Positions 29,068 through 42,245 of a DNA stretch of 64,000 nucleotides are shown in pieces. The notes beneath the pieces were generated by a model that saw only the letters and a program-made list of their open reading frames with translations, made no database searches and was not told the DNA's origin. Location: contig NZ_CP117445.1 of assembly GCF_030687715.1 (NCBI RefSeq), positions 1,856,501 to 1,920,500 on the forward strand, read 5' to 3'. A program made the position numbers and the translations under genes. This DNA is from Pseudomonas sp. FP2196. GTDB taxonomy: Bacteria; Pseudomonadota; Gammaproteobacteria; Pseudomonadales; Pseudomonadaceae. Positions within the stretch are counted from its first letter, which is position 1. Each line of letters opens with the position of its first letter.

Positions 29068-30231
29068 TCATTGGCTGTTGCGCTGGTGGCGATAGTCGCT
29101 GACCGCTTCGTACACCGCTTTACGCAGTCGGTTGATTCCGCCGATCGGGCGATGCGCTTCGATGCCAAACCATGGGTTGAACGACAGGTTGTCGCATTGC
29201 AGATTCTGCTGTGGTGTATCGAAATCCTGAGGTGGCAGGGTGATGCGGGCCACGGGTTCGAACGGTGCATCCTGCTCGCGCCACTGGATGCTGGTGTCCT
29301 CGATCGGCATGTATTTATTGGCGTCCTGACGCTGAATCTGTAGCACGTAACAAGCGGGCACCCGATCCGTGGATAACTGCTTATTCAGGGCGCCGCGCAG
29401 GAAGTTCGGCAAGTCGTGGTTCTGCTTGGGCAAAGTGTAGGCTGGGCAATTGTCCGGATCGGGCGTTACCCGAAATTTCACATTGGCCTCACCAAACTTG
29501 TAGGGCGATACCGAGAAGTAAGTCGTCCCTGTCGGACTGTCCGGCGGCGGCGCCAGTGTTGCCAGCGCAATAAACAGATGGCGGATTTGCCAGGTGCGTG
29601 GATCCCATCCCGGAAAAAACGCCATGACCTTTTTGCCGTCAGCCTGCGCCGCCACATTCTGACGATACTCGGCGACATCGCTGACAAAGAAGTTCGGGTG
29701 ACTGAACATCACGAAGTCTTGTTCGTGCTGTTGCTGGCGGTTACCGAGTAGCTGTATGCCTGGCACGTCGAGCAACTTGATCGCCATGCCACGGGCGTCG
29801 CGCATGCTGTCGAACTGCGGATAGGCATTGCCATTGGATAGTCGAATCATCGCCTGCCAGGTTTTACCCGGCTCGCTGAAGACACCCTGTCGCAATGACT
29901 GTGCCAGTTGCGGCAGAACCTGCACCTGCGCTTTCACACAACCATGGGCCTTGGCGTGAGCGTCGCGTAAATAGCGAGTGCCTGCGCGGTGTTGATCGAC
30001 GATGCGCACGGCCGTCTGGATCACATCCTGAGTCATGGCCGACTCGCCTGGCGGAATCTGCTCCAGTGCTGAAACCGGGCCACGGTGCTGCCAGGCAAAC
30101 CATGCCGTGGCGACGGCCCAGCCGAGCAGTCCGATGGCGAAAACTATCAACAACGTTTTGCCCAGCAATCGTCCCAGCCACAACCAGATTCTGGCCAACA
30201 ACGGCATTTCTTTCTTGAAGGTCGAGATCAT
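29068..30231 (-). CDS. Membrane-anchored catalase-family haem protein (SrpA-like)
   Basis: 387 residues with an N-terminal membrane anchor (LLGKTLLIVFAIGLLGWAVA). RYLRDAHAKAHGCVKAQ aligns with the distal-histidine region of catalases, and MRDARGMAIKLLDVPG, DFVMFSHPNFFVSD and the C-terminal RPIGGINRLRKAVYE follow catalase-family order. It is shorter than true catalases and belongs to the group of exported catalase-like proteins. Its start overlaps the stop of the upstream di-haem cytochrome gene (ATGA), so the two are translated together. Peroxidase rather than catalase activity is likely but unproven. Confidence 0.85.
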   Translation of the reverse strand: MISTFKKEMPLLARIWLWLGRLLGKTLLIVFAIGLLGWAVATAWFAWQHRGPVSALEQIPPGESAMTQDVIQTAVRIVDQHRAGTRYLRDAHAKAHGCVKAQVQVLPQLAQSLRQGVFSEPGKTWQAMIRLSNGNAYPQFDSMRDARGMAIKLLDVPGIQLLGNRQQQHEQDFVMFSHPNFFVSDVAEYRQNVAAQADGKKVMAFFPGWDPRTWQIRHLFIALATLAPPPDSPTGTTYFSVSPYKFGEANVKFRVTPDPDNCPAYTLPKQNHDLPNFLRGALNKQLSTDRVPACYVLQIQRQDANKYMPIEDTSIQWREQDAPFEPVARITLPPQDFDTPQQNLQCDNLSFNPWFGIEAHRPIGGINRLRKAVYEAVSDYRHQRNSQ

Positions 30232-32045
30232 GGCAATTGCGCCTCCAGCGGGCCGCCCAACACCTTCAGGTATTCCAGCAATGCCCAACGTTCTTCGGGC
30301 TGCAACAGCCGGCCGATAACGCCATTGCCGCGCTCGCCGGCGCGGAATTCATGGCCGCTGTTGTGGTTGCCAGTGATCCGCGTGTCGAACACAAAACCAT
30401 TGGTAAACGCTTCGGTGCGATAGCCCAGATGTCGCGGGTCGTATTCGAAGGTGCCTTTAAAGAAGGTGGTGGCGCGCTCATCCTGCGGCGAAAGCAATTG
30501 ATAAATGCTTGGCACCGAACCGTTGTGCAGAAACGGCGCGGTAGCCCAGATGCCGGCCAGTGGGCGCGCCTTGTAGGCGACTTTTTCACGCACGCCGATG
30601 GGCAGGCCGAAACCGTCCAGGTCAGACTTTTCCTCTGGCGTGACTTTCGCCTCGCGATAGGCGCGGTTTTCGACAAATGCGGTGACGTAAGCCAAACCTT
30701 TGGCTACGGACAACTGGCTCAGATCCAGCGGCTCACTGGGTGTCGGATGCAGCTTCACATCCATTTTTTCCAGTTCTTTGAGATCCCATTGCAGGGCTGT
30801 CAGGTCGAAGCGATGGGTGGCGATGTTGTTGGCGGCGCTCGGATCGGTACCGATGACGTCTACCGGTAACATGTGCAGATGCTGCACCCAGCGATCGCCT
30901 TCCTGAATCCTGCGTGGGACGTGGCAACCAGCGCAGGTCTCGACGAACAGCGTGCGGCCTCTGGCTGCGAGCGGCTTGTCGATGGCACCCAACAGATCTT
31001 CGGGCCAGGCGGGCGGTTGCAGGTGTTGCAGGGTTTTTTCGATTTTGTGCAGGTCACGCACACGGACGCTGGAGGCGTAACGGTCATCGCCTTGCAGCGG
31101 CTGGCCGTTGGCGTCGAAGAAATTCAGGGTGGCGCCGACGCCCAAGGCTTCACCGATGTTGCGCGCCATAGGCTGTTGTGCCGAACCGTTCCACTGCACC
31201 CAGTCGAAGGTCCACATGTCCCAAAGCTGGGGGTAGTCCACCGGCGCATTGGCCACGCGATAGTTGGCAGGGGAAATGGCGTCGCCGAACGTCGCGTTCG
31301 CTATCCGCCCGAATGCATCGGCGCGGCCCGGGCCTTCCTCGGTGGGGTAGAGGCCGCGGTGTGTGTCGTTCCAGGCGACTTTCAGGAAGGTGTTCAGCGT
31401 GACTTTGAAGTCCTTGCGCAGTTGCTCGTGGCGGGCGTCGTAGTCATTGCCCAGCACATTTCGCGCAAAGCGCTCGAATTTCCACGGATTGAGGTAAGTC
31501 GACGTAAGGCTGGCGACCAATGCCTGTCCGAAACTACCGCCGCGTAATGTCGGAACGCTGGAAGGCAGTACGTGCTGCGCCGTGCCTCCGTCGATGCGGA
31601 CAGCATGGCCTTTGAAGCGCAATTCGCCGGTGTGGCAAGCCGCACAAGTTATGTCCAGATAGTGCTCGGTGCTCCCGGGATTCTGGTGTCGCGCAAAGCC
31701 GACAGGCAGGTTGCCGGGATTGCCCGGCGTGGCTTTCTGTTGCGGATCGATGAGAAAACCGAAGCGCGCGAGGTATTCGGGGGCGGCGAAACGTTGCTGC
31801 GAAAAGGGCAACTCCAGCGCCTGAAACCACTCATAGCGCAGCCCTTTGACTTGCGTGCCCTGGGGCGTGAAGTAATAGGTCTGTCGTTCTTCTTCCGCCC
31901 ACTGATTCAGGTAATGCACCTGCTGCGCGGGGGTGTAGAAGGGCATTTTCGGATTGGCCACGTAGTACAAAACCACCGCGAGGACGAGTCCCAGCAGCAC
32001 GACGACCAGAGCCAGCACGCGGAATAAAAGGCGCAAGATAAACAT
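30228..32045 (-). CDS. Di-haem c-type cytochrome, RoxA/cytochrome-c-peroxidase-like
   Basis: 605 residues with one N-terminal membrane span (LLGLVLAVVLYYVANPKMPF) and two haem-binding motifs, CAACH near residue 135 and CAGCH near 370. The C-terminal LAGIWATAPFLHNGSVPSIY is shared by RoxA-like and MauG/CcpA-type di-haem proteins. It should sit on the periplasmic face and exchange electrons with a peroxide- or oxygen-dependent partner. It is the first gene of a two-gene operon with the catalase-like protein. Confidence 0.85.
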   Translation of the reverse strand: MFILRLLFRVLALVVVLLGLVLAVVLYYVANPKMPFYTPAQQVHYLNQWAEEERQTYYFTPQGTQVKGLRYEWFQALELPFSQQRFAAPEYLARFGFLIDPQQKATPGNPGNLPVGFARHQNPGSTEHYLDITCAACHTGELRFKGHAVRIDGGTAQHVLPSSVPTLRGGSFGQALVASLTSTYLNPWKFERFARNVLGNDYDARHEQLRKDFKVTLNTFLKVAWNDTHRGLYPTEEGPGRADAFGRIANATFGDAISPANYRVANAPVDYPQLWDMWTFDWVQWNGSAQQPMARNIGEALGVGATLNFFDANGQPLQGDDRYASSVRVRDLHKIEKTLQHLQPPAWPEDLLGAIDKPLAARGRTLFVETCAGCHVPRRIQEGDRWVQHLHMLPVDVIGTDPSAANNIATHRFDLTALQWDLKELEKMDVKLHPTPSEPLDLSQLSVAKGLAYVTAFVENRAYREAKVTPEEKSDLDGFGLPIGVREKVAYKARPLAGIWATAPFLHNGSVPSIYQLLSPQDERATTFFKGTFEYDPRHLGYRTEAFTNGFVFDTRITGNHNSGHEFRAGERGNGVIGRLLQPEERWALLEYLKVLGGPLEAQLP

Positions 32046-33773: not shown

Positions 33774-33885
33774 TTCCCCCATCCCGCCTGCAGATAGATA
33801 CCCCCCGCGACCTTGGCCGCTGTTAGGATTACACTTCTAGGGAAAAGTGCTGACTCGCTAAGTGTTGTTGTCCTACGGGGTAGTC

Positions 33886-34227
33886 ATGGATATTCAGATA
33901 ATTGCACGCGATGGCGAACCCGAATATGCGGTTTTGCCATGGGCTCAGTATCAGTCTCTACTGAAAGCAGCAGGCATCAACGAAACACCGTCGCGACAGG
34001 CGCCAGCGCCGCTCGCGGCAACACCAGACCTGATTCTTCCAGGTCTGGATCAACTACGCAGTTTGCGCGAAGGGAAGGGCATCGCCATCGAGGCGCTGGC
34101 CCGCACGGTAGGCATCAGCCCGTCTTATCTGGCCATGATCGAAAGTGGCGAGCGTCTGCCCGACGCCGCGATTCGCCGCAGCCTGGCCTGGGAGCTGACG
34201 GTGCCAGGGTGGAGGGATGAATCGTGA
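33886..34227 (+). CDS. XRE-type helix-turn-helix regulator with antitoxin-like N-terminus
   Basis: 113 residues. The first 30 (IIARDGEPEYAVLPWAQYQS) look like the strand-helix N-terminus of Phd/VapB-type small regulators. Residues about 58-105 form an HTH_3 domain (LRSLREGKGIAIEALARTVG then ISPSYLAMIESGERLP). It overlaps the next gene by 4 bp (GTGA). The combination suggests a DNA-binding autoregulator of this three-gene unit, but the partner does not look like a known toxin. Confidence 0.8.
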   Translation: MDIQIIARDGEPEYAVLPWAQYQSLLKAAGINETPSRQAPAPLAATPDLILPGLDQLRSLREGKGIAIEALARTVGISPSYLAMIESGERLPDAAIRRSLAWELTVPGWRDES

Positions 34228-34595
34228 GCGTACGCATCAGTCGTCAACATTGGGACGGATTGCTGGGGGAGCTGGATCAGGCGCGCAGGCAGCGCCATCT
34301 GTTGACCTATCGGGCCTTGCTCGAACGTTTGCAATTGCCGACACCGGCGATGCAAACCTTGACGGCCGCGTTGGAGCATCTGGCCGCGCTGGATGCCAAG
34401 GCCGAACAACCATTGCGCAGTTCGCTGGTGATAAGTCAGGGCGCCAGTCGCTTGCCGCGTACCGGTTTTTTTGAATGCGTCGAGCGCCTGGGGCGTTTTT
34501 CCGGGCCGTCCGATGGCGTTGCCGCAGCGTCATGGCATGCTTCGGAAGTCGTCAGAGTCTTCGAATACGAGTACCCGGAATCGGCGGAGGCTTGA
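34224..34595 (+). CDS. Unrecognised protein coupled to the XRE regulator
   Basis: 123 residues from a GTG start that overlaps the regulator's stop. It is mostly helical in appearance: ISRQHWDGLLGELDQARRQR, then LPTPAMQTLTAALEHLAALD, then a conserved-looking FFECVERLGRFSGPSDG and SWHASEVVRVFEYEY. There is no signal peptide or membrane span. Charged residues and Trp/His are compatible with a nucleic-acid or protein-binding role, but I recognise no family. Tight coupling on both sides implies a shared job with the XRE protein. Confidence 0.75.
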   Translation: MSVRISRQHWDGLLGELDQARRQRHLLTYRALLERLQLPTPAMQTLTAALEHLAALDAKAEQPLRSSLVISQGASRLPRTGFFECVERLGRFSGPSDGVAAASWHASEVVRVFEYEYPESAEA

Positions 34596-35003
34596 GTGTT
34601 TTTACGACTCAAGGCGCGAGCTGGTTACTGGCTGGCTCGCCGACTTTTTCATTGGTCGTGGTTTGTTCGCCAGCCCCGAGGCTGGCGCTGGCTCGAGGGG
34701 CAGTTCGCACGCATGGCAGCCCTCGGTAACGTCAGCGCGCAAAGCTTCTACGGCCACATCCTGGCCTTTCGCGGTGTAGGCCTGGGTGCACGTGAAGAAG
34801 GCGTGCGCTTGTTGCGGCTGGCGGCACTGGCCGGCGATGGCAAAGCGGCTTATCAGGTCGGGGTGATCTGCCTGACAGGTACACCGAGCAAAGCGTCGGA
34901 CCCTGTTGAGGCCGCACGCTGGTGGAGCATGGCCGCCAAGGCCGGGCATCCGTTGGCCGAGCATAAGTTGAAAGAGCTGAGTGCCCGGGATTCAACGCAG
35001 TAA
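34596..35003 (+). CDS. Sel1-like repeat protein with amphipathic N-terminus
   Basis: 135 residues from a GTG directly abutting the previous stop, with GGCGGAGG ending 5 bp upstream. The N-terminus RAGYWLARRLFHWSWFVRQP is aromatic and basic and may associate with membrane. Three Sel1-type repeats follow (GVRLLRLAALAGDGKAAYQV and DPVEAARWWSMAAKAGHPLA). It is the second Sel1 protein in the window (compare 13030). An adaptor function is the only general inference. Confidence 0.83.
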   Translation: MFLRLKARAGYWLARRLFHWSWFVRQPRGWRWLEGQFARMAALGNVSAQSFYGHILAFRGVGLGAREEGVRLLRLAALAGDGKAAYQVGVICLTGTPSKASDPVEAARWWSMAAKAGHPLAEHKLKELSARDSTQ

Positions 35004-35193: not shown

Positions 35194-35241
35194 ATGCTCG
35201 ACCCGGTTATTCAGTCCACCCCGCACCCAAGCGTGCGTTGA
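35194..35241 (+). CDS. 15-codon leader ORF coupled to the Rhs gene
   Basis: ATG at 35194, preceded by GCGAGGGAACG, encodes MLDPVIQSTPHPSVR and stops at TGA 35239-35241, whose last base is the A of the Rhs ATG (TGATG). The Rhs ATG itself has no good ribosome site, so translation of this leader probably feeds re-initiation at Rhs. Alternatively it is the true Rhs N-terminus displaced by a frameshift. Confidence 0.5.
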   Translation: MLDPVIQSTPHPSVR

Positions 35242-38200
35242 TGGAAGCCATCACCCGTATCGAGCAAGCACTCGACAGCTTCCCTGACACCCTCAGTCTC
35301 TACCGCGAGCAGCTCAAACACTGGGCCAGCCGTGCCTCCGACACAGTCAGCCATGCTACCGATCTGCCGTCGTTGATGGGCATGGAGCGGATCATCCGCT
35401 TTGGTGAGAGCAATACCGCCGTCAGCAGTAGCGACGACCAGTTTTTCTCCAGCGTCGTCCAGTGCCCGAAGGGCGGGCTGATGTTGATCGAGAGCAAGTT
35501 CGAATCGGTGTATGACATCCCGCTGGGCAACATCAAGGTCGATGTGGTGGCGGTGGATGGCGGTGAAAAAACACCGGTGACCCTTGATGCCCAGGGCAAA
35601 GGGGAGTTCAAGGGCGCAGAGGGCAAGTTCTACCGGGTGCAAGTACACGGTGCTGTCAGCCCGGAACAGGTTGAAGTTCTTTTTGAGTCCTACGATGGCC
35701 TGACCCTTGAGCTGGATGATTGGCTGCGTAGCGAATGGCAGGGGTTCAAGCCACAGTGGTCGCAGTCGGTGGCGACTGCGGCGAGCAACGGCTTGCTTGC
35801 CGGGAGTTGGGCGGCGATTGAGGGGGTGTGGGGCAGCATCGGGATGCTGTCGGACATTCTCAAAGATCCTGGGGCGTTTGCCGAGCAATTGGGCAGTGGT
35901 GCAACTGATCTGATCAATCTGGCAGCTACCGCGCCTGAGGTGATGGAGCAGCTTCAACTGCTGGTCAGTGACGAGGCGACCCTGTGTTTGCTGCTACGCA
36001 CGGCGAGTCTCTGGCTGGAGATGTTGCCGCCCAGTGAGATCGCCGGCAAAACCGCTCAAGCGGCGTCGATGATGATCGTGCAATTGCTGCTCGATGTGCT
36101 GATCAGCGTTGTGTTGACGTTCGCCAGTGGTGGCGCTGGGATCGCTTATCTGACGCTGCGTCTGGCAGATCGCGCGGTTCAATTGCTGTCAGCGGTGACG
36201 CGGCTGGTGAAGGCGTTGTTTGCCATCGTCAACGGCTTCATCAAGTACGTTGATCAATACAAAACCGTTGCCGCGCGCGGCATAGCGGCCGGCGTGAAAA
36301 AAGGCCGGATGCAACTGCGCTGGAATGCCAAGCGCAACGCCTCGCTGAAGAAAGACGAACCTCACGACGATAAGCCCGATCAGGCTAAAAACCCCAACGG
36401 CGACAGCGCCGACTGCGTGCCCTCGACCTGCACCAACGGCTGCCCGGTGTCGATGGTCACTGGCGAGGAACTGCTGACCCTGACGGATGGCACGCTCGAT
36501 GGACTGCTGCCGTTCGAGTTCACCCGCTTGTATCGCACCAGTGCCGCTGAAATCGATGTCGGGCTGGGGTTTGGCTGGAGTCATTCTCTGGCGCATCGGC
36601 TGGAGTTCGATGGCGATTTTGTTGTTTGGGTCGATCACGAAAATCGGCGCACGCGGTTTCCAGTGCCGAGTGCTGAACGGCCGGCGATTCACAACAGTTT
36701 GTCGCGGGCGGCGATTTTTCTAGGGGATGAGCCGCAGGAACTGATTCTCGCGCTGGCGGGGGACACGGCGCGGTTTTATCACTTTCGGGCCGGGCGGCTG
36801 ACGGCGGTCAGTGATGGGTATGGCAATCGTCTGACCGTGCAGCGGGATCGATCCGACAGGGTTCAGCGACTGGATAACGGGGCGGGTCGGGCGCTGCTGT
36901 TGCGTTATGAGCGGGCTCATCTGGTCGGCGTTGATTACCAAACGTTTTGTGAGGGTGGCTGGCACACCGAACAAACCCTTGCCAGTTACCGCTACGACGC
37001 CTATCAGCACCTGATCGAAGCCTCTAACGCCGTTGGCGACAGCGAGCGTTACGACTACGACGATCTGCACGTCATTCTTCAGCGTCAGCTGACCGGTGGC
37101 GCGAGTTTCTTCTGGAAATGGGAGCGCTCAGGCAAGGCTGCCCGCTGCGTGCGCCACTGGGCGTCGTTCTCGCAGATGAACACGCGTTACGTCTGGTCCG
37201 ACGACGGCAGTGTCGCGGTGCATTACGTCGATGGCACCGAAGAAACTTACGTGCACGACGACCGTGCGCGGCTGGTGCGCAAGGTCGAGGCTGACGGCGG
37301 CGAACACCTCAAGGCCTACGACGATCAGGGTCGCTTGGTCGCCGAGCAGGATCCGCTTGGCGCCATTACCGAATACCGTTACGACGAAGTCGGACGGCTG
37401 ATCGCGCTGCTTCCGCCGGACGACGAGCCGACATCCTACGAATACCGCAATGGTTTCCTGCACAGCCGCTCTCGCGGCGAGGCGGTGTGGACATACCGGC
37501 GCAATGCCCAGGGTGATGTTACCGAAGCGGTTGATCCTGACGGGCAGGTTACGCATTACCACTACGATGCGCGTGGGCAGTTGCTGTCGATCCGCTATCC
37601 GGACACCAGTCGGCATGTGCTGGTCTGGAACACGCTCGGCCAGTTGGTTGAAGAAACCCTGCCCGATGGCGGTGTGCGGCGCTTTTCCTACGATGCGCTG
37701 GGGCGGCGGAGCACAACGCAGGACGAACACGGCGCGATCACGCGTCAGCACTGGGACGCCGTTGGCCGACTGATCCAGACGACTTCTCCTACGGGGGCCA
37801 CCCGCACCTACAGCTACGGCGCTTACAACCAGGTCACCGCCGAACGCGACGAACTCGGCCGCATCACTCGCTACGAATATGACGACGACCTGCATCTGGT
37901 CTCCCGACGGATCAATCCTGACGGCACGCGGGTGCAATACCGCTACGACCATGCGCGACTGCTGCTGACGGAAATCGAAAACGAGTCCGGCGAAAAGTAC
38001 CTTCTGGACTACACGCCCACCGGACTGATCCGACAGGAAACCGGTTTCGATGGGCGGCGCACGGCCTACGCCTATGACCTCAACGGTCATCTGCTGGAAA
38101 AGACCGAATTCGGCGATGACGGCTCGACGTTGGTCACCGGATACGAACGCGATACCGCCGGCCGCCTGCTGGTCAAAACCCTGCCCGACGGGATCAAGGT

Positions 38201-40025
38201 CGAATACCGCTACGACCGCCTCGGCCGTTTAACCGGCGTCGACGATGGCCAGAAACATCCGCTGGCTTTCGAATACGACCTGCAGGACCGGCTGATCACC
38301 GAGCATCAGGGCTGGGGCACCCTGCGTTACGCCTACGACATCTGCGGCCAGCTCAAACGCATGCGCCTGCCGGACAACAGCAAACTCGATTATCACCATG
38401 CCAAGGGCGGCGCGCTCAGAGCCATCGACCTCAACGGCGCGTCACTGACCCGCCACGTTTACCAGTCCGGTCGTGAACAACAACGCCAGCAAGGCCTGCT
38501 GCTCAGCGAATATACCTACGACGATCAGGGCCGCTTGCTCGCCCATGCCGTAGGCCATCAACACGATTCGCTGTACCGCCGCGACTATGCCTACAGCGCC
38601 AACGGCAACCTCGAGCACATCGCCGACACCCGCCACGGCCAGCGCACCTACGGCTATGACGCCCTCGACCGTTTGATCCGTGTGCGCCACTCGCGCGACG
38701 AACTGCCGGAATCCTTCGCCCACGACCCGGCCGGCAACCTGCTCATGCAGGACCGCTCCGGGCCGACGCAGATCAAAGGCAACCGCCTGCTGATGCAGGG
38801 TGACCGCCACTACGACTACGACGCCTTCGGCAACCTGATCCGCGAACGCCGCGGCACCGCGCAGAAACTCGTCACCGAATACCGCTACGACTGCCAACAC
38901 CGCCTCATCGGCCTGACCCGCCCCGACGGCAAGACCGCCAGTTACCGCTACGACGCCTTCAACCGGCGCATCAGCAAAACCGTCGACGGCGCCATCACCG
39001 AGTTCTTTTGGCAAGGCGACCACCTCGTCGCCGAAAGCAGCCAAACCCACCACCGCAGCTACGTCTACGAACCCGGCACCTTCCGCCCGCTGGCGCTGCT
39101 CGACGGCAAAGGCCCGAAAAAGGCCTGCCCGTTCTATTACCAACTCGACCACCTCGGCACCCCGCAGGAACTCACCGACTACAGCGGCGAAATCGTCTGG
39201 TCGGCGCAATACGACGCCTACGGCAAAGTCGCCGCGCTGACCCTCGCCGCCGAGGAATACCTGGACCAGCCACTGCGCTTTCAGGGGCAGTATTTCGACG
39301 CTGAGAGTGGACTGCATTACAACCGGCATAGGTACTACGACCCACGGCTGGGCCGGTATCTGACGCCGGACCCGATCAAGTTGGCGGGTGGGTTGAATCA
39401 GTACCAGTACGTGCCGAATCCGACGGGGTGGGTGGATCCGTTGGGGTTGAGTTCGAACTGTCCGCCGCCGAAGAAGCCGGGTTGTGCGGTGCCGGGTGAT
39501 GTAAGTGGAGCTAAGGTCAATGAAGGTGAGCCAGCGCTGCCGAAGATGACAGCGCAGGAGCGGAGGGCGAGGATTGATGAACTAGCCGAGGAAAATGCAA
39601 AGCGGCGTGTTAGTGAGTATGAAAAAATTTATGACATGCACACTGTGAAAAAACATAGTTCGGAAATTTCTGATCCAGCTCTCAAACAGCGAGCGATCAA
39701 TGGAGCGGATCCTCATACCGGTGAGGTCCCGAAAGGTGCCAAAGGTAATCCAAGCTCTCAGTTTCATAGCTGGCGCATGCATTTGGGTGCCTTGAATAAA
39801 GCGATGACGAAGGATAAAAACGGTTTGATTAGGCATACAGGAAAGGATCAGAAGAAAAATCCAATAGTTAGGTTGGAACTGCCTGGAGCTGGGCGCGGTT
39901 ACAGACCCAATAAAAAAGATTCACAAAATCCGGGGCTTAATGAGGATATGGATTGGTTTGAGGTTAAATTCGACAAAGTGAATACACAGGAGCCTTTTAC
40001 GGGCTTCCCCGCGGAGGGAAAATGA
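35241..40025 (+). CDS. Rhs-family polymorphic toxin with variable C-terminal tail
   Basis: 1594 residues. Residues 1 to about 390 are an N-terminal region with hydrophobic helices near 265-330 (LLLDVLISVVLTFASGGAGI). A DUF6531-type start follows with CTNGCPVSMVTGEELL. About 900 residues of YD repeats come next, then the Rhs core end GRYLTPDPIKLAGGLNQYQY and PTGWVDPLGLSS near 1415. The last 180 residues are unrelated, AT-rich in DNA, and hold HTVKKHSSEIS, PSSQFHSWRMHL, NPIVRLEL and GRGYRPN. That layout is reminiscent of RNase A-like/BECR toxin tails, which I cannot confirm. No VgrG or PAAR gene is adjacent. Confidence 0.9.
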   Translation: MEAITRIEQALDSFPDTLSLYREQLKHWASRASDTVSHATDLPSLMGMERIIRFGESNTAVSSSDDQFFSSVVQCPKGGLMLIESKFESVYDIPLGNIKVDVVAVDGGEKTPVTLDAQGKGEFKGAEGKFYRVQVHGAVSPEQVEVLFESYDGLTLELDDWLRSEWQGFKPQWSQSVATAASNGLLAGSWAAIEGVWGSIGMLSDILKDPGAFAEQLGSGATDLINLAATAPEVMEQLQLLVSDEATLCLLLRTASLWLEMLPPSEIAGKTAQAASMMIVQLLLDVLISVVLTFASGGAGIAYLTLRLADRAVQLLSAVTRLVKALFAIVNGFIKYVDQYKTVAARGIAAGVKKGRMQLRWNAKRNASLKKDEPHDDKPDQAKNPNGDSADCVPSTCTNGCPVSMVTGEELLTLTDGTLDGLLPFEFTRLYRTSAAEIDVGLGFGWSHSLAHRLEFDGDFVVWVDHENRRTRFPVPSAERPAIHNSLSRAAIFLGDEPQELILALAGDTARFYHFRAGRLTAVSDGYGNRLTVQRDRSDRVQRLDNGAGRALLLRYERAHLVGVDYQTFCEGGWHTEQTLASYRYDAYQHLIEASNAVGDSERYDYDDLHVILQRQLTGGASFFWKWERSGKAARCVRHWASFSQMNTRYVWSDDGSVAVHYVDGTEETYVHDDRARLVRKVEADGGEHLKAYDDQGRLVAEQDPLGAITEYRYDEVGRLIALLPPDDEPTSYEYRNGFLHSRSRGEAVWTYRRNAQGDVTEAVDPDGQVTHYHYDARGQLLSIRYPDTSRHVLVWNTLGQLVEETLPDGGVRRFSYDALGRRSTTQDEHGAITRQHWDAVGRLIQTTSPTGATRTYSYGAYNQVTAERDELGRITRYEYDDDLHLVSRRINPDGTRVQYRYDHARLLLTEIENESGEKYLLDYTPTGLIRQETGFDGRRTAYAYDLNGHLLEKTEFGDDGSTLVTGYERDTAGRLLVKTLPDGIKVEYRYDRLGRLTGVDDGQKHPLAFEYDLQDRLITEHQGWGTLRYAYDICGQLKRMRLPDNSKLDYHHAKGGALRAIDLNGASLTRHVYQSGREQQRQQGLLLSEYTYDDQGRLLAHAVGHQHDSLYRRDYAYSANGNLEHIADTRHGQRTYGYDALDRLIRVRHSRDELPESFAHDPAGNLLMQDRSGPTQIKGNRLLMQGDRHYDYDAFGNLIRERRGTAQKLVTEYRYDCQHRLIGLTRPDGKTASYRYDAFNRRISKTVDGAITEFFWQGDHLVAESSQTHHRSYVYEPGTFRPLALLDGKGPKKACPFYYQLDHLGTPQELTDYSGEIVWSAQYDAYGKVAALTLAAEEYLDQPLRFQGQYFDAESGLHYNRHRYYDPRLGRYLTPDPIKLAGGLNQYQYVPNPTGWVDPLGLSSNCPPPKKPGCAVPGDVSGAKVNEGEPALPKMTAQERRARIDELAEENAKRRVSEYEKIYDMHTVKKHSSEISDPALKQRAINGADPHTGEVPKGAKGNPSSQFHSWRMHLGALNKAMTKDKNGLIRHTGKDQKKNPIVRLELPGAGRGYRPNKKDSQNPGLNEDMDWFEVKFDKVNTQEPFTGFPAEGK

Positions 40026-40441
40026 TGCTGAAAGACCCATTTTTAAATGAACGCTTCGAACCTGACTTAATGTGGTTCGTTGGGATATTTGATGTTTATG
40101 ATAGAGAGGAGACCAAGGGTGTAGAGCTCGAGGCTTATGATCCGAATGATCAAGCTGATAGAAGTATGCTAATAAAGAAGTATTGCTTGAATCAGCCTTA
40201 TCTCTCACATAGGCATAAATTGGCTCTCATTGAAAATCTAGAGGCGGTGCTTAAGGATCCAAACTTCGATTTTCAAGCTATATTTGAAATAGATGAATGC
40301 GAAACAAACAGTTGGCCGCGTGAGGAATGGTATTCATTAGAAAGTCCACGTAGGTTTTTTCAAGATGTCTATCAACTAGCGACAGAAATCTGGAAAGAGG
40401 ATCTGTTGATGGCTGCTAGTGAAGATAAGTCGGCTTGGTAA
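40022..40441 (+). CDS. Putative immunity protein for the Rhs tail
   Basis: 139 residues, acidic, with no signal peptide, starting at an ATGATG that overlaps the Rhs stop. It contains DLMWFVGIFDVYDREETKGV, LSHRHKLALIENLEAVLKD and a C-terminal FFQDVYQLATEIWKED. The AT-rich codon use matches the Rhs tail and differs sharply from both flanking regions, as expected for a toxin/immunity cassette swapped as a unit. I recognise no immunity family, and the call rests on position, size and composition. Confidence 0.75.
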   Translation: MMLKDPFLNERFEPDLMWFVGIFDVYDREETKGVELEAYDPNDQADRSMLIKKYCLNQPYLSHRHKLALIENLEAVLKDPNFDFQAIFEIDECETNSWPREEWYSLESPRRFFQDVYQLATEIWKEDLLMAASEDKSAW

Positions 40442-40454
40442 ACTAAAAATCAAG

Positions 40455-42245
40455 TCAACGTTGTACGCTAAGTTGCAATCGATGTAGCTCGGCAGAGGCG
40501 AGACTATCAATCACATGCACGCTATACCCCGGAATATTCTTCGCATGATGCTTAGCCTGCGAAGCCATCTCCGCAAGCTGACTAGCATCGAGTTGTGCGC
40601 ACGCTTCGGGATGCAAATGCACCACGCCAATGGATAGCGACAACAACGGAAATTCCTGACGTACACCCTGTCGATTCGGCGCGATGAAGCAGCCGGCTTC
40701 GAGGTGTTCGGGGCGGTAGAAGCGGCGGCATTGGCTTTGGAAGTCGTCGAGTAACTGGTTGAGGCGTTTGCGCCAGTCTTCGGGGCCGAGGACGAGGAGG
40801 AAGTCGTCGCCGCCGATGTGGCCGACGAAGTCGCGGGTAGGATCGACGCGTTCGTTGAGGCACTGCGCCAGGCACAGCAGGACTTCATCGCCGCGGCCGT
40901 ATCCGTAGATGTCATTGAAGGGTTTGAAGCTGTCGATGTCGACGTAGCAGATGACCGATTCGCGACCTTGTTGCAGCAGGCGGGTCAGGCATTGCTGGAT
41001 CGGTACGTTGCCGGGTAGCAGGGTCAGCGGGTTGGCGTAACGGGCCTGCTGGATTTTCAGTTCGGTGATCAGTTTAAGCACGTCGATCACCCGACCGAGG
41101 CCGAGATAGCTGCCGTTGAGGGTAATGATGAAGTCTTCTTCGATCCGCTGACGGGCGCGGCTGGTGATCAGGCGACTGACCTGTTGCAGCGACTGGCTCA
41201 TTTCCACGGCGAGGAAGTCGTCGTTCATAAGACGGCTGATCGGCTTGCGGGCGAAAAGGTCGGTGGCGAATGGCTTGAGCAGGGCATCCGACAGCGAGTG
41301 GCGATGGACGATGCCGCAGGGTTGGCCCTGTTCGTCGAGCACTGCCAGTGAGTTGAGATTGGCCTGGCGGCGGAAGGCTTCCAGCACGGTGGCGGTCGGC
41401 GTATCGCGATGCACGGCCGGTTGGTCGTTGAGCAGGGCGCTGAGGTCGCTGCCTTCGTCGTTTAATGCCACGCTGGCGCTGTCGTGTTTGGGCATCAAGG
41501 CGCGGGCATCGCGAGGCGGATGTTCTTGCGGTCGACTCAGCAAGTAACCCTGCACCAAATCCACGCCCATCTCGGTCAGCACAGCCAACTCTTCTGGGAG
41601 TTCGATGCCTTCGGCAATGACTTGCGCCCGGGAGGCTTTGGCTATCTGCAGGATCGAGCCGACGAATTCTCGCTTCAATGCATCCTGATGAATGCCATCA
41701 ATGAAATGCCGGTCGATCTTCACGTAGTCCGGACGCAGCTCTGACCACAGGCGCAGGCTCGAATACCCGGCGCCGAGGTCATCCAGTGCAATCGAAAAAC
41801 CCATCGCCCGATAGTGATGTAGAGCCGTTTGCAGCAACTGAAAGTCGTCGATTGGCGTCTGTTCAGTGAGTTCGATCACCACTTGGCTCGGCGGGATGCC
41901 GAAGTCTTGCAGCAATTGCAGTGTCCGCCCTGGCTGATGCGCGGCTTCGAGCAACGACTCCGGCGAGACGTTGAGAAACAGTTTGCCCGGCAGTTGCTGT
42001 TCGTTGAAACGGCGGCAAGCGCTTTGCCGGCAGGCGATTTCCAGTTCGCTCAAGCGTCCGGCCTGACGCGCCACCGCGAACAGCGCGATGGGCGAGTGCA
42101 GAGGGCTATTGGATGGGCCGCGAGTCAGCGCTTCGTAACCGAGGATACGTCGCTCGGAGAGGCAAATGATCGGCTGGAACAGGCTGTGTAAACCGCTTTG
42201 AGTCAGGATCGAGCTCAAGGCACTCAGCTGTTCGGTTGTGGTCAT
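40455..42245 (-). CDS. EAL-CBS-GGDEF cyclic-di-GMP protein
   Basis: 596 residues in an unusual N-to-C order. The EAL phosphodiesterase domain spans residues about 10-245 (YEALTRGP, ELTEQTP, DDLGAGYSSL, KIDRHFI, EGIEL, QGYLLSRP). All the usual metal and substrate residues are present. A pair of CBS domains lies at about 270-400. The C-terminal GGDEF domain runs from about 420 (YVDIDSFKPFND, GYGRGDEVLL, HIGGDDFLLVL), and its signature is GGDDF instead of GG(D/E)EF. I infer a phosphodiesterase whose activity is tuned by a nucleotide-binding CBS pair, with a weak or sensory cyclase domain. It has its own promoter after the prc terminator. Confidence 0.92.
   Translation of the reverse strand: MTTTEQLSALSSILTQSGLHSLFQPIICLSERRILGYEALTRGPSNSPLHSPIALFAVARQAGRLSELEIACRQSACRRFNEQQLPGKLFLNVSPESLLEAAHQPGRTLQLLQDFGIPPSQVVIELTEQTPIDDFQLLQTALHHYRAMGFSIALDDLGAGYSSLRLWSELRPDYVKIDRHFIDGIHQDALKREFVGSILQIAKASRAQVIAEGIELPEELAVLTEMGVDLVQGYLLSRPQEHPPRDARALMPKHDSASVALNDEGSDLSALLNDQPAVHRDTPTATVLEAFRRQANLNSLAVLDEQGQPCGIVHRHSLSDALLKPFATDLFARKPISRLMNDDFLAVEMSQSLQQVSRLITSRARQRIEEDFIITLNGSYLGLGRVIDVLKLITELKIQQARYANPLTLLPGNVPIQQCLTRLLQQGRESVICYVDIDSFKPFNDIYGYGRGDEVLLCLAQCLNERVDPTRDFVGHIGGDDFLLVLGPEDWRKRLNQLLDDFQSQCRRFYRPEHLEAGCFIAPNRQGVRQEFPLLSLSIGVVHLHPEACAQLDASQLAEMASQAKHHAKNIPGYSVHVIDSLASAELHRLQLSVQR

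Follow-up and report, generated by a model that had tools for sequence, protein, structure and literature searches.

A probable exchangeable toxin-immunity cassette with a predicted RNase A-like toxin at the end of a Pseudomonas Rhs gene

Introduction

In Rhs shells, the C-terminal toxin is described as being cut off by an aspartyl-protease motif and staying enclosed, and a DUF6531 plug together with an aspartyl-protease end has been described for Tse5 (PMC10684867). RNA cleavage has been described for another C-terminal toxin, CdiA-CT of Yersinia kristensenii (PDB 5E3E; PMC9086364, PMC9970974), in which His175, Arg186, Thr276 and Tyr278 are needed for full activity (PMC9086364). Here we compare with these systems an Rhs gene of Pseudomonas sp. 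FP2196, which lies in a stretch of 64,000 nucleotides (the window; contig NZ_CP117445.1, positions 1,856,501 to 1,920,500) that is part of a 6.2-Mb chromosome. The relatives of this gene come from Pseudomonas. A preliminary description of the window had proposed that the Rhs tail and an overlapping gene of 139 residues are a swapped toxin/immunity cassette of no recognised family. Our analysis makes it quite likely that the two are the exchangeable cassette of a polymorphic Rhs effector, consisting of an RNase A-like toxin and its immunity gene.

Results

Alleles at the same locus carry different tails behind a conserved Rhs shell, showing directly that the cassette has been swapped, as had been proposed. 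The Rhs side of the neighboring EAL/GGDEF gene could be viewed in 20 relatives, and an Rhs gene was present there in 4 (G010, G011, G016 and G019), as judged by a text pattern that a strongly diverged Rhs could escape. In blastn comparisons with loci carrying a second tail type, family B (L014, L016, L018 and G019), the alignment runs up to 39598-39617 and resumes at 40452-40512. The alignment with G011 breaks at 39545 and resumes at 40516, and that with G010 breaks at 39449 and resumes at 40539. In G016, which has a type-B tail, homology stops at 39589 and resumes at 40020, so the small gene was retained behind a foreign toxin. Nine loci belong to the same tail family as the window (family A; L002-L010): in five of them the alignment is unbroken, and in the other four it stops at 40372-40427 and picks up at 40462-40501. 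The 50 residues after the DPLGL motif are a linker common to strains with tail A and strains with tail B. The tail-B breakpoints therefore put the point of exchange with type B some 50 codons into the fragment that would be released, after this constant linker, which on its sequence would belong to the released fragment and lie outside the A/B swap. The swap against tail B thus begins about 140 bases later than the preliminary description had placed it.

The GC content and third-position GC content (GC3) are 0.614/0.753 in the Rhs core, 0.592/0.531 in the linker (39452-39598), 0.448/0.390 in the toxin part and 0.400/0.381 in the small gene. For comparison, 93 windows of 140 codons from 35 other open reading frames (ORFs) of the window, picked by length so that a few may not be genes, had a minimum GC3 of 0.464, a next value of 0.579 and a median of 0.743; both the toxin part and the small gene lie below all of them. 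The AT-rich, codon-shifted tail and adjoining gene of the preliminary description are thus confirmed, as is the return to normal that it had put at about 40450, with composition and homology resuming at about 40,450-40,540 depending on the allele. Its change of composition after the core is real as well but is a sharp step at about 39,600 rather than at 39,460.

At a threshold of E 1e-30, 104 of the 149 genomes of the genus carried this Rhs backbone, and the genome of the window had 8 copies of it. Family-A tails occurred in 5 of 38 genomes, including that of the window, and had homologs in 53 clusters with identities down to 45%. We surveyed 30 backbone loci, taking a single locus per genome from the 30 best genomes (L124 being the window itself), and assigned their tails by hidden Markov model (HMM) and by eye: 16 were family A or variants of it, 9 family B, 4 of other types, two of which we take to be ParB-like, and 1 was cut. 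A text pattern had found the tail in 27 of these loci, missing L147 and L152, which are family A by HMM, and L153, which is cut by a contig end.

Family B (HFLEKHG...TxY; L014-L023, L126-L131, L133, L144 and L145) is likewise unnamed and shares the linker. One of nine family-B members touched RNAse_A_bac at E 0.018, and the family is probably a distant relative of family A. In L022 and L131 (G016), the last part of the family-B tail is unlike that of its relatives and ends prematurely, as if the frame had changed, and a family-A immunity gene remains downstream. Elsewhere, a family-A toxin and its immunity gene are followed closely by a toxin piece of the RNAse_A_bac type (L118; G017:C1:1118511-1118783; profile 21-113 of 113). 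Four further Rhs copies in the window's genome (L154-L157; G000:C1 1216500-1223300, 1978800-1981800 and 3795000-3798500) have other tails: two with YLYRGD...STS segments are presumably ADP-ribosyltransferase-like, one with a GGSRVRGD...SDLDVGF segment is presumably nucleotidyltransferase-like, and the fourth carries no label.

By Pfam and NCBIfam scans, the Rhs protein is composed of an N-terminal region, a DUF6531 plug (401-474), YD repeats and an Rhs core, with matches to PF05593, PF03527 and TIGR03696; no Pfam family matched the first 400 residues. DPLGL (residues 1400-1404) closes the core at 39449, and a YD-repeat shell whose core ends in DPxGL assigns the protein by its sequence to the polymorphic Rhs toxins. 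Solved Rhs shells in the PDB, RhsA (7q97) among them, are related to it by sequence. Further, the aspartates D1378 and D1400, 22 residues apart, fit the pattern DPXGX18DPXG except that K replaces the first G. From this spacing and the Tse5 paper, self-cleavage after L1404 is expected.

The tail is predicted to adopt an RNase A fold. The top structural match of its model (ma8b977b1f6b0; predicted local distance difference test, pLDDT, 85.6) is 5e3e, the Y. kristensenii toxin, at 13-18% identity over the match. It leads the runner-up by 3.8 Z units, and the other matches listed in that comparison are RNase A relatives. The catalytic residues of that toxin have predicted counterparts in the tail: a printed alignment of 5e3e_B with RNAse_A_bac tails locates them in the sequence, hhalign places H1473 and R1485 on His175 and Arg186, and the ends of the structural alignment (148-281) match T1588 with Thr276 and F1590 with Tyr278, provided that no gap falls close to the end. 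The invariant SSQF segment probably has a structural role. Because of the fold and these residues, RNA cleavage as described for the Y. kristensenii toxin would be expected of this domain. The preliminary description had likened the series HTVKKH, SSQFHSW, NPIVRLEL and GRGYRPN, all of which are present in the tail in that order, to RNase A-like/BECR (barnase-EndoU-colicin E5/D-RelE) toxins, and had suggested a profile search and a structure prediction. The predicted fold and active-site positions bear out the RNase A branch of this comparison rather than a classical BECR clade. The profile search agreed that the tail has no recognised family in Pfam or NCBIfam, and the same holds for PADLOC and PDB sequences.

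Several results weigh against reading the locus as an RNase A-like toxin cassette. No sequence model recognises the tail. With E values up to 10 allowed, none of 25 family-A tails matched RNAse_A_bac (PF18431; curated cut-off 27 bits), which also had no match in the window's own genome. Only one of five toxin models exceeded pLDDT 70 (the others 67.7 to 58.5), and Foldseek gave no match under E 0.001, with cyclase/isomerase chains at ranks 2-4 (template modelling score, TM, 0.14-0.15 of the query). In hhalign, the tail aligned with the RNAse_A_bac set at a probability of about 3% and in its N-terminal half only, though no more than 1 of 200 column shuffles scored as high. At residue 1590, which corresponds to Tyr278, 50 of the 54 tails have F, 3 have Y and 1 has no residue, and Phe is unable to act as an acid; F also occupies this position in several Pseudomonas PF18431 tails. 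For the small protein, the model matched no solved fold well and CdiI of 5e3e was not listed (Foldseek/VIA), a miss that does not show a different fold. Finally, the Pfam scans found neither a PAAR domain in the Rhs protein nor a secretion gene, VgrG included, among ten nearby ORFs.

The first alternative to weigh is that the tail is a toxin of another fold, either a classical BECR RNase of the colicin D/E5, EndoU or RelE type or a non-nuclease, and that a common alpha+beta arrangement accounts for the RNase A match. We regard this as unlikely. The scarcity of confident models would fit it, as would two papers: Zhang et al. 2012 (PMC3482391) predicted Ntox41, whose motif fits the tail, to be a BECR toxin, and the Y. 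kristensenii toxin is filed as 'RNase A/BECR' (PMC9086364). However, the lead of 5e3e over the next match, the RNase A relatives behind it and the catalytic His, Arg and Thr of this same protein in register all argue for the RNase A fold.

The overlapping 139-residue gene is present as previously noted, and its product is probably an immunity protein. Its start may be the second ATG, at 40025, because many relatives have 138 residues. The toxin is basic (isoelectric point, pI, 9.7; net charge +8) and the small protein acidic (pI 4.4; net charge -15), with an all-helical model of eight helices (pLDDT 87.3). Relatives numbered 39 by single-sequence search and 567 by profile search, and no Pfam domains were found in the best 120 of these 567. 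Neither sequence nor profile search found a family for the small protein, so the earlier impression that it matches nothing known holds, for solved folds too. Its sequence profile did not find CdiI of Y. kristensenii, which does not exclude a relation. The gene occurs in 7 of 38 genomes, in one of them as a short piece only. We counted a toxin as paired when an immunity relative starts within 60 bases of it, dropping one toxin at a locus edge (L149). By this measure, a relative stands beside 14/14 family-A toxins in a set of 22 loci and 18/18 in an overlapping set of 30, as against 0/10 and 0/9 family-B toxins; by distinct DNA, the pairing is 30 of 30 assessable family-A toxins and 0 of 18 with tail B. 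This pairing makes it very unlikely that the gene is a passenger and that protection comes from elsewhere, although the small protein has no family or matching fold and 4 distinct copies lack a toxin A directly upstream. These toxin-free copies resemble orphan immunity genes, the opposite charges of the two proteins fit a toxin and its partner, and displaced short family-A toxin pieces behind the main cassette (L020, L021, L134, which is the place of L072, and L135) keep their own small gene too. Least probable of all is a decayed or inert AT-rich end: drift is possible in such tails and P0009 (1/54) lacks the residue at 1590, but the frame is open, polar residues are invariant in 54 tails down to 45% identity and the downstream gene is kept in every assessable case.

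Table 1. Positions of the Rhs gene, its cassette and the adjoining features in the window
Feature	Position	Strand	Basis
Rhs ORF	35238-40025	+	overlaps the 139-residue ORF (40022-40441, +) by 4 bases
Rhs delivery part, residues 1-1404	35238..39449	+	Pfam/NCBIfam scans; PDB relatives by sequence
Constant linker, residues 1405-1454	39450..39599	+	tail-B allele DNA homology ends 39589-39617; GC 0.592
Toxin domain, family A, residues 1455-1595, predicted RNase A-like ribonuclease	39600..40025, stop 40023-40025	+	model; 5e3e match; homologs; GC 0.448
H1468-x4-H1473 (HTVKKH); H1473 predicted general base, His175 equivalent of the Y. kristensenii toxin	39639..39656	+	both invariant, 54/54
R1485, predicted Arg186 equivalent	39690..39692	+	invariant, 54/54; register by hhalign and printed alignment
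SSQF motif, 1506-1509, aligned with SSTF of RNAse_A_bac tails	39753..39764	+	invariant, 54/54; hhalign register
T1588-G-F1590-P, predicted Thr276-x-Tyr278 equivalent	39999..40010	+	T1588 invariant, 54/54; ends of structural alignment
Putative immunity gene, 139 residues (138 from 40025), acidic, all-helical	40022..40441	+	pairing with family-A toxins; model; pI 4.4
3' junction zone, homology with other alleles resumes	40442..40540		blastn against alleles; Pfam
EAL/GGDEF gene, convergent, 3' end at junction zone	40455-42245	-	Pfam

Upstream of the Rhs gene (33862-35003) lie a small helix-turn-helix protein, an ORF without assignment and a Sel1-repeat protein. Neighboring ORFs on the minus strand (29068-32045) have matches to a RoxA-like cytochrome c and, with a weak E of 1.3e-7, to catalase.

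Discussion

We propose that the Rhs shell would cleave itself behind DPLGL and enclose a fragment of 191 residues made up of the constant linker and the 141-residue toxin domain. The toxin domain would then enter a neighboring bacterium, most probably by a type VI route; two VipB genes lie elsewhere in the genome, and delivery by one of its type VI systems is likely. Once inside, the domain is predicted to cut RNA without a metal ion in an RNase A-like reaction, with H1473 as the base, R1485 stabilising the transition state and T1588, beside F/Y1590, at the acid site. The acidic surface of the immunity protein would bind the basic toxin, shielding the producer and its kin. A more particular version is possible, though we hold it to be rather doubtful: family A may be a separate RNase A-like clade with the acid role moved off Tyr, its site combining His-Arg-Thr, Phe and another invariant histidine, H1468. 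Its target might then be one defined RNA site, and its partner would be a new immunity family, all-helical, which spreads alone as orphan protection. If so, two or three RNase A-like families, all diverged, would be rivals for the same Rhs shell.

Titles and abstract openings listed by our literature searches named neither the family-A tail nor the immunity family, which is weak evidence of absence. The pair represents a predicted toxin family and a putative immunity family, both new, in a type of system that is well known. The preliminary view of an undescribed pair therefore stands in that neither partner belongs to a named family, and falls short in that the tail also occurs elsewhere, has a known fold and contains residues that agree with a motif published in 2012. 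With these two unnamed families, both recurrent in Pseudomonas, the small set of bacterial RNase A-like toxins is enlarged, and the predicted active-site residues can be tested. A clean natural record of Rhs tail exchange is also provided by the strains with different cassettes at a single site, including one in which a different toxin now precedes the retained old immunity gene.

Among known systems, MafB2-CT/MafI2 of Neisseria, an RNase A-fold polymorphic toxin compared here by its description (PMC9970974), likewise combines a diverged RNase A-like toxin with an immunity partner, but histidines have been proposed as its acid residues and the architecture of its immunity protein differs. The ribocin RbcN of P. 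aeruginosa is also a Pseudomonas protein that is predicted to fold like RNase A, and its His, Thr and Tyr are essential; by its description it targets animal ribosomes, and the available text does not place it within an Rhs protein (PMC13189344). The printed motif of Ntox41 ([RK]H, [KR], [ST]xxP; Zhang et al. 2012, PMC3482391) fits K1472-H1473, R1485 and T1588-G-F-P. RhsA (7q97) and Tse5 differ from our protein in their toxins and in that its N terminus has no PAAR match, whereas the YD-repeat shell is related by sequence to RhsA and the DUF6531 plug and aspartyl-protease end are as described for Tse5 (PMC10684867). CdiA-CT/CdiI of Y. kristensenii (5E3E; PF18431) is set apart by low identity over the structural match (13-18%), by a family profile that does not recognise family-A tails, by Tyr278 where family A mostly has Phe, by CdiA rather than Rhs as the carrier and by an immunity protein with no detected relation to ours. 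Yet it shares with family A the predicted fold, the order and register of His, Arg and Thr, and the pairing of a toxin at the C terminus with a small immunity protein that is all-helical, with eight helices in CdiI (PMC9970974) and eight in the model here.
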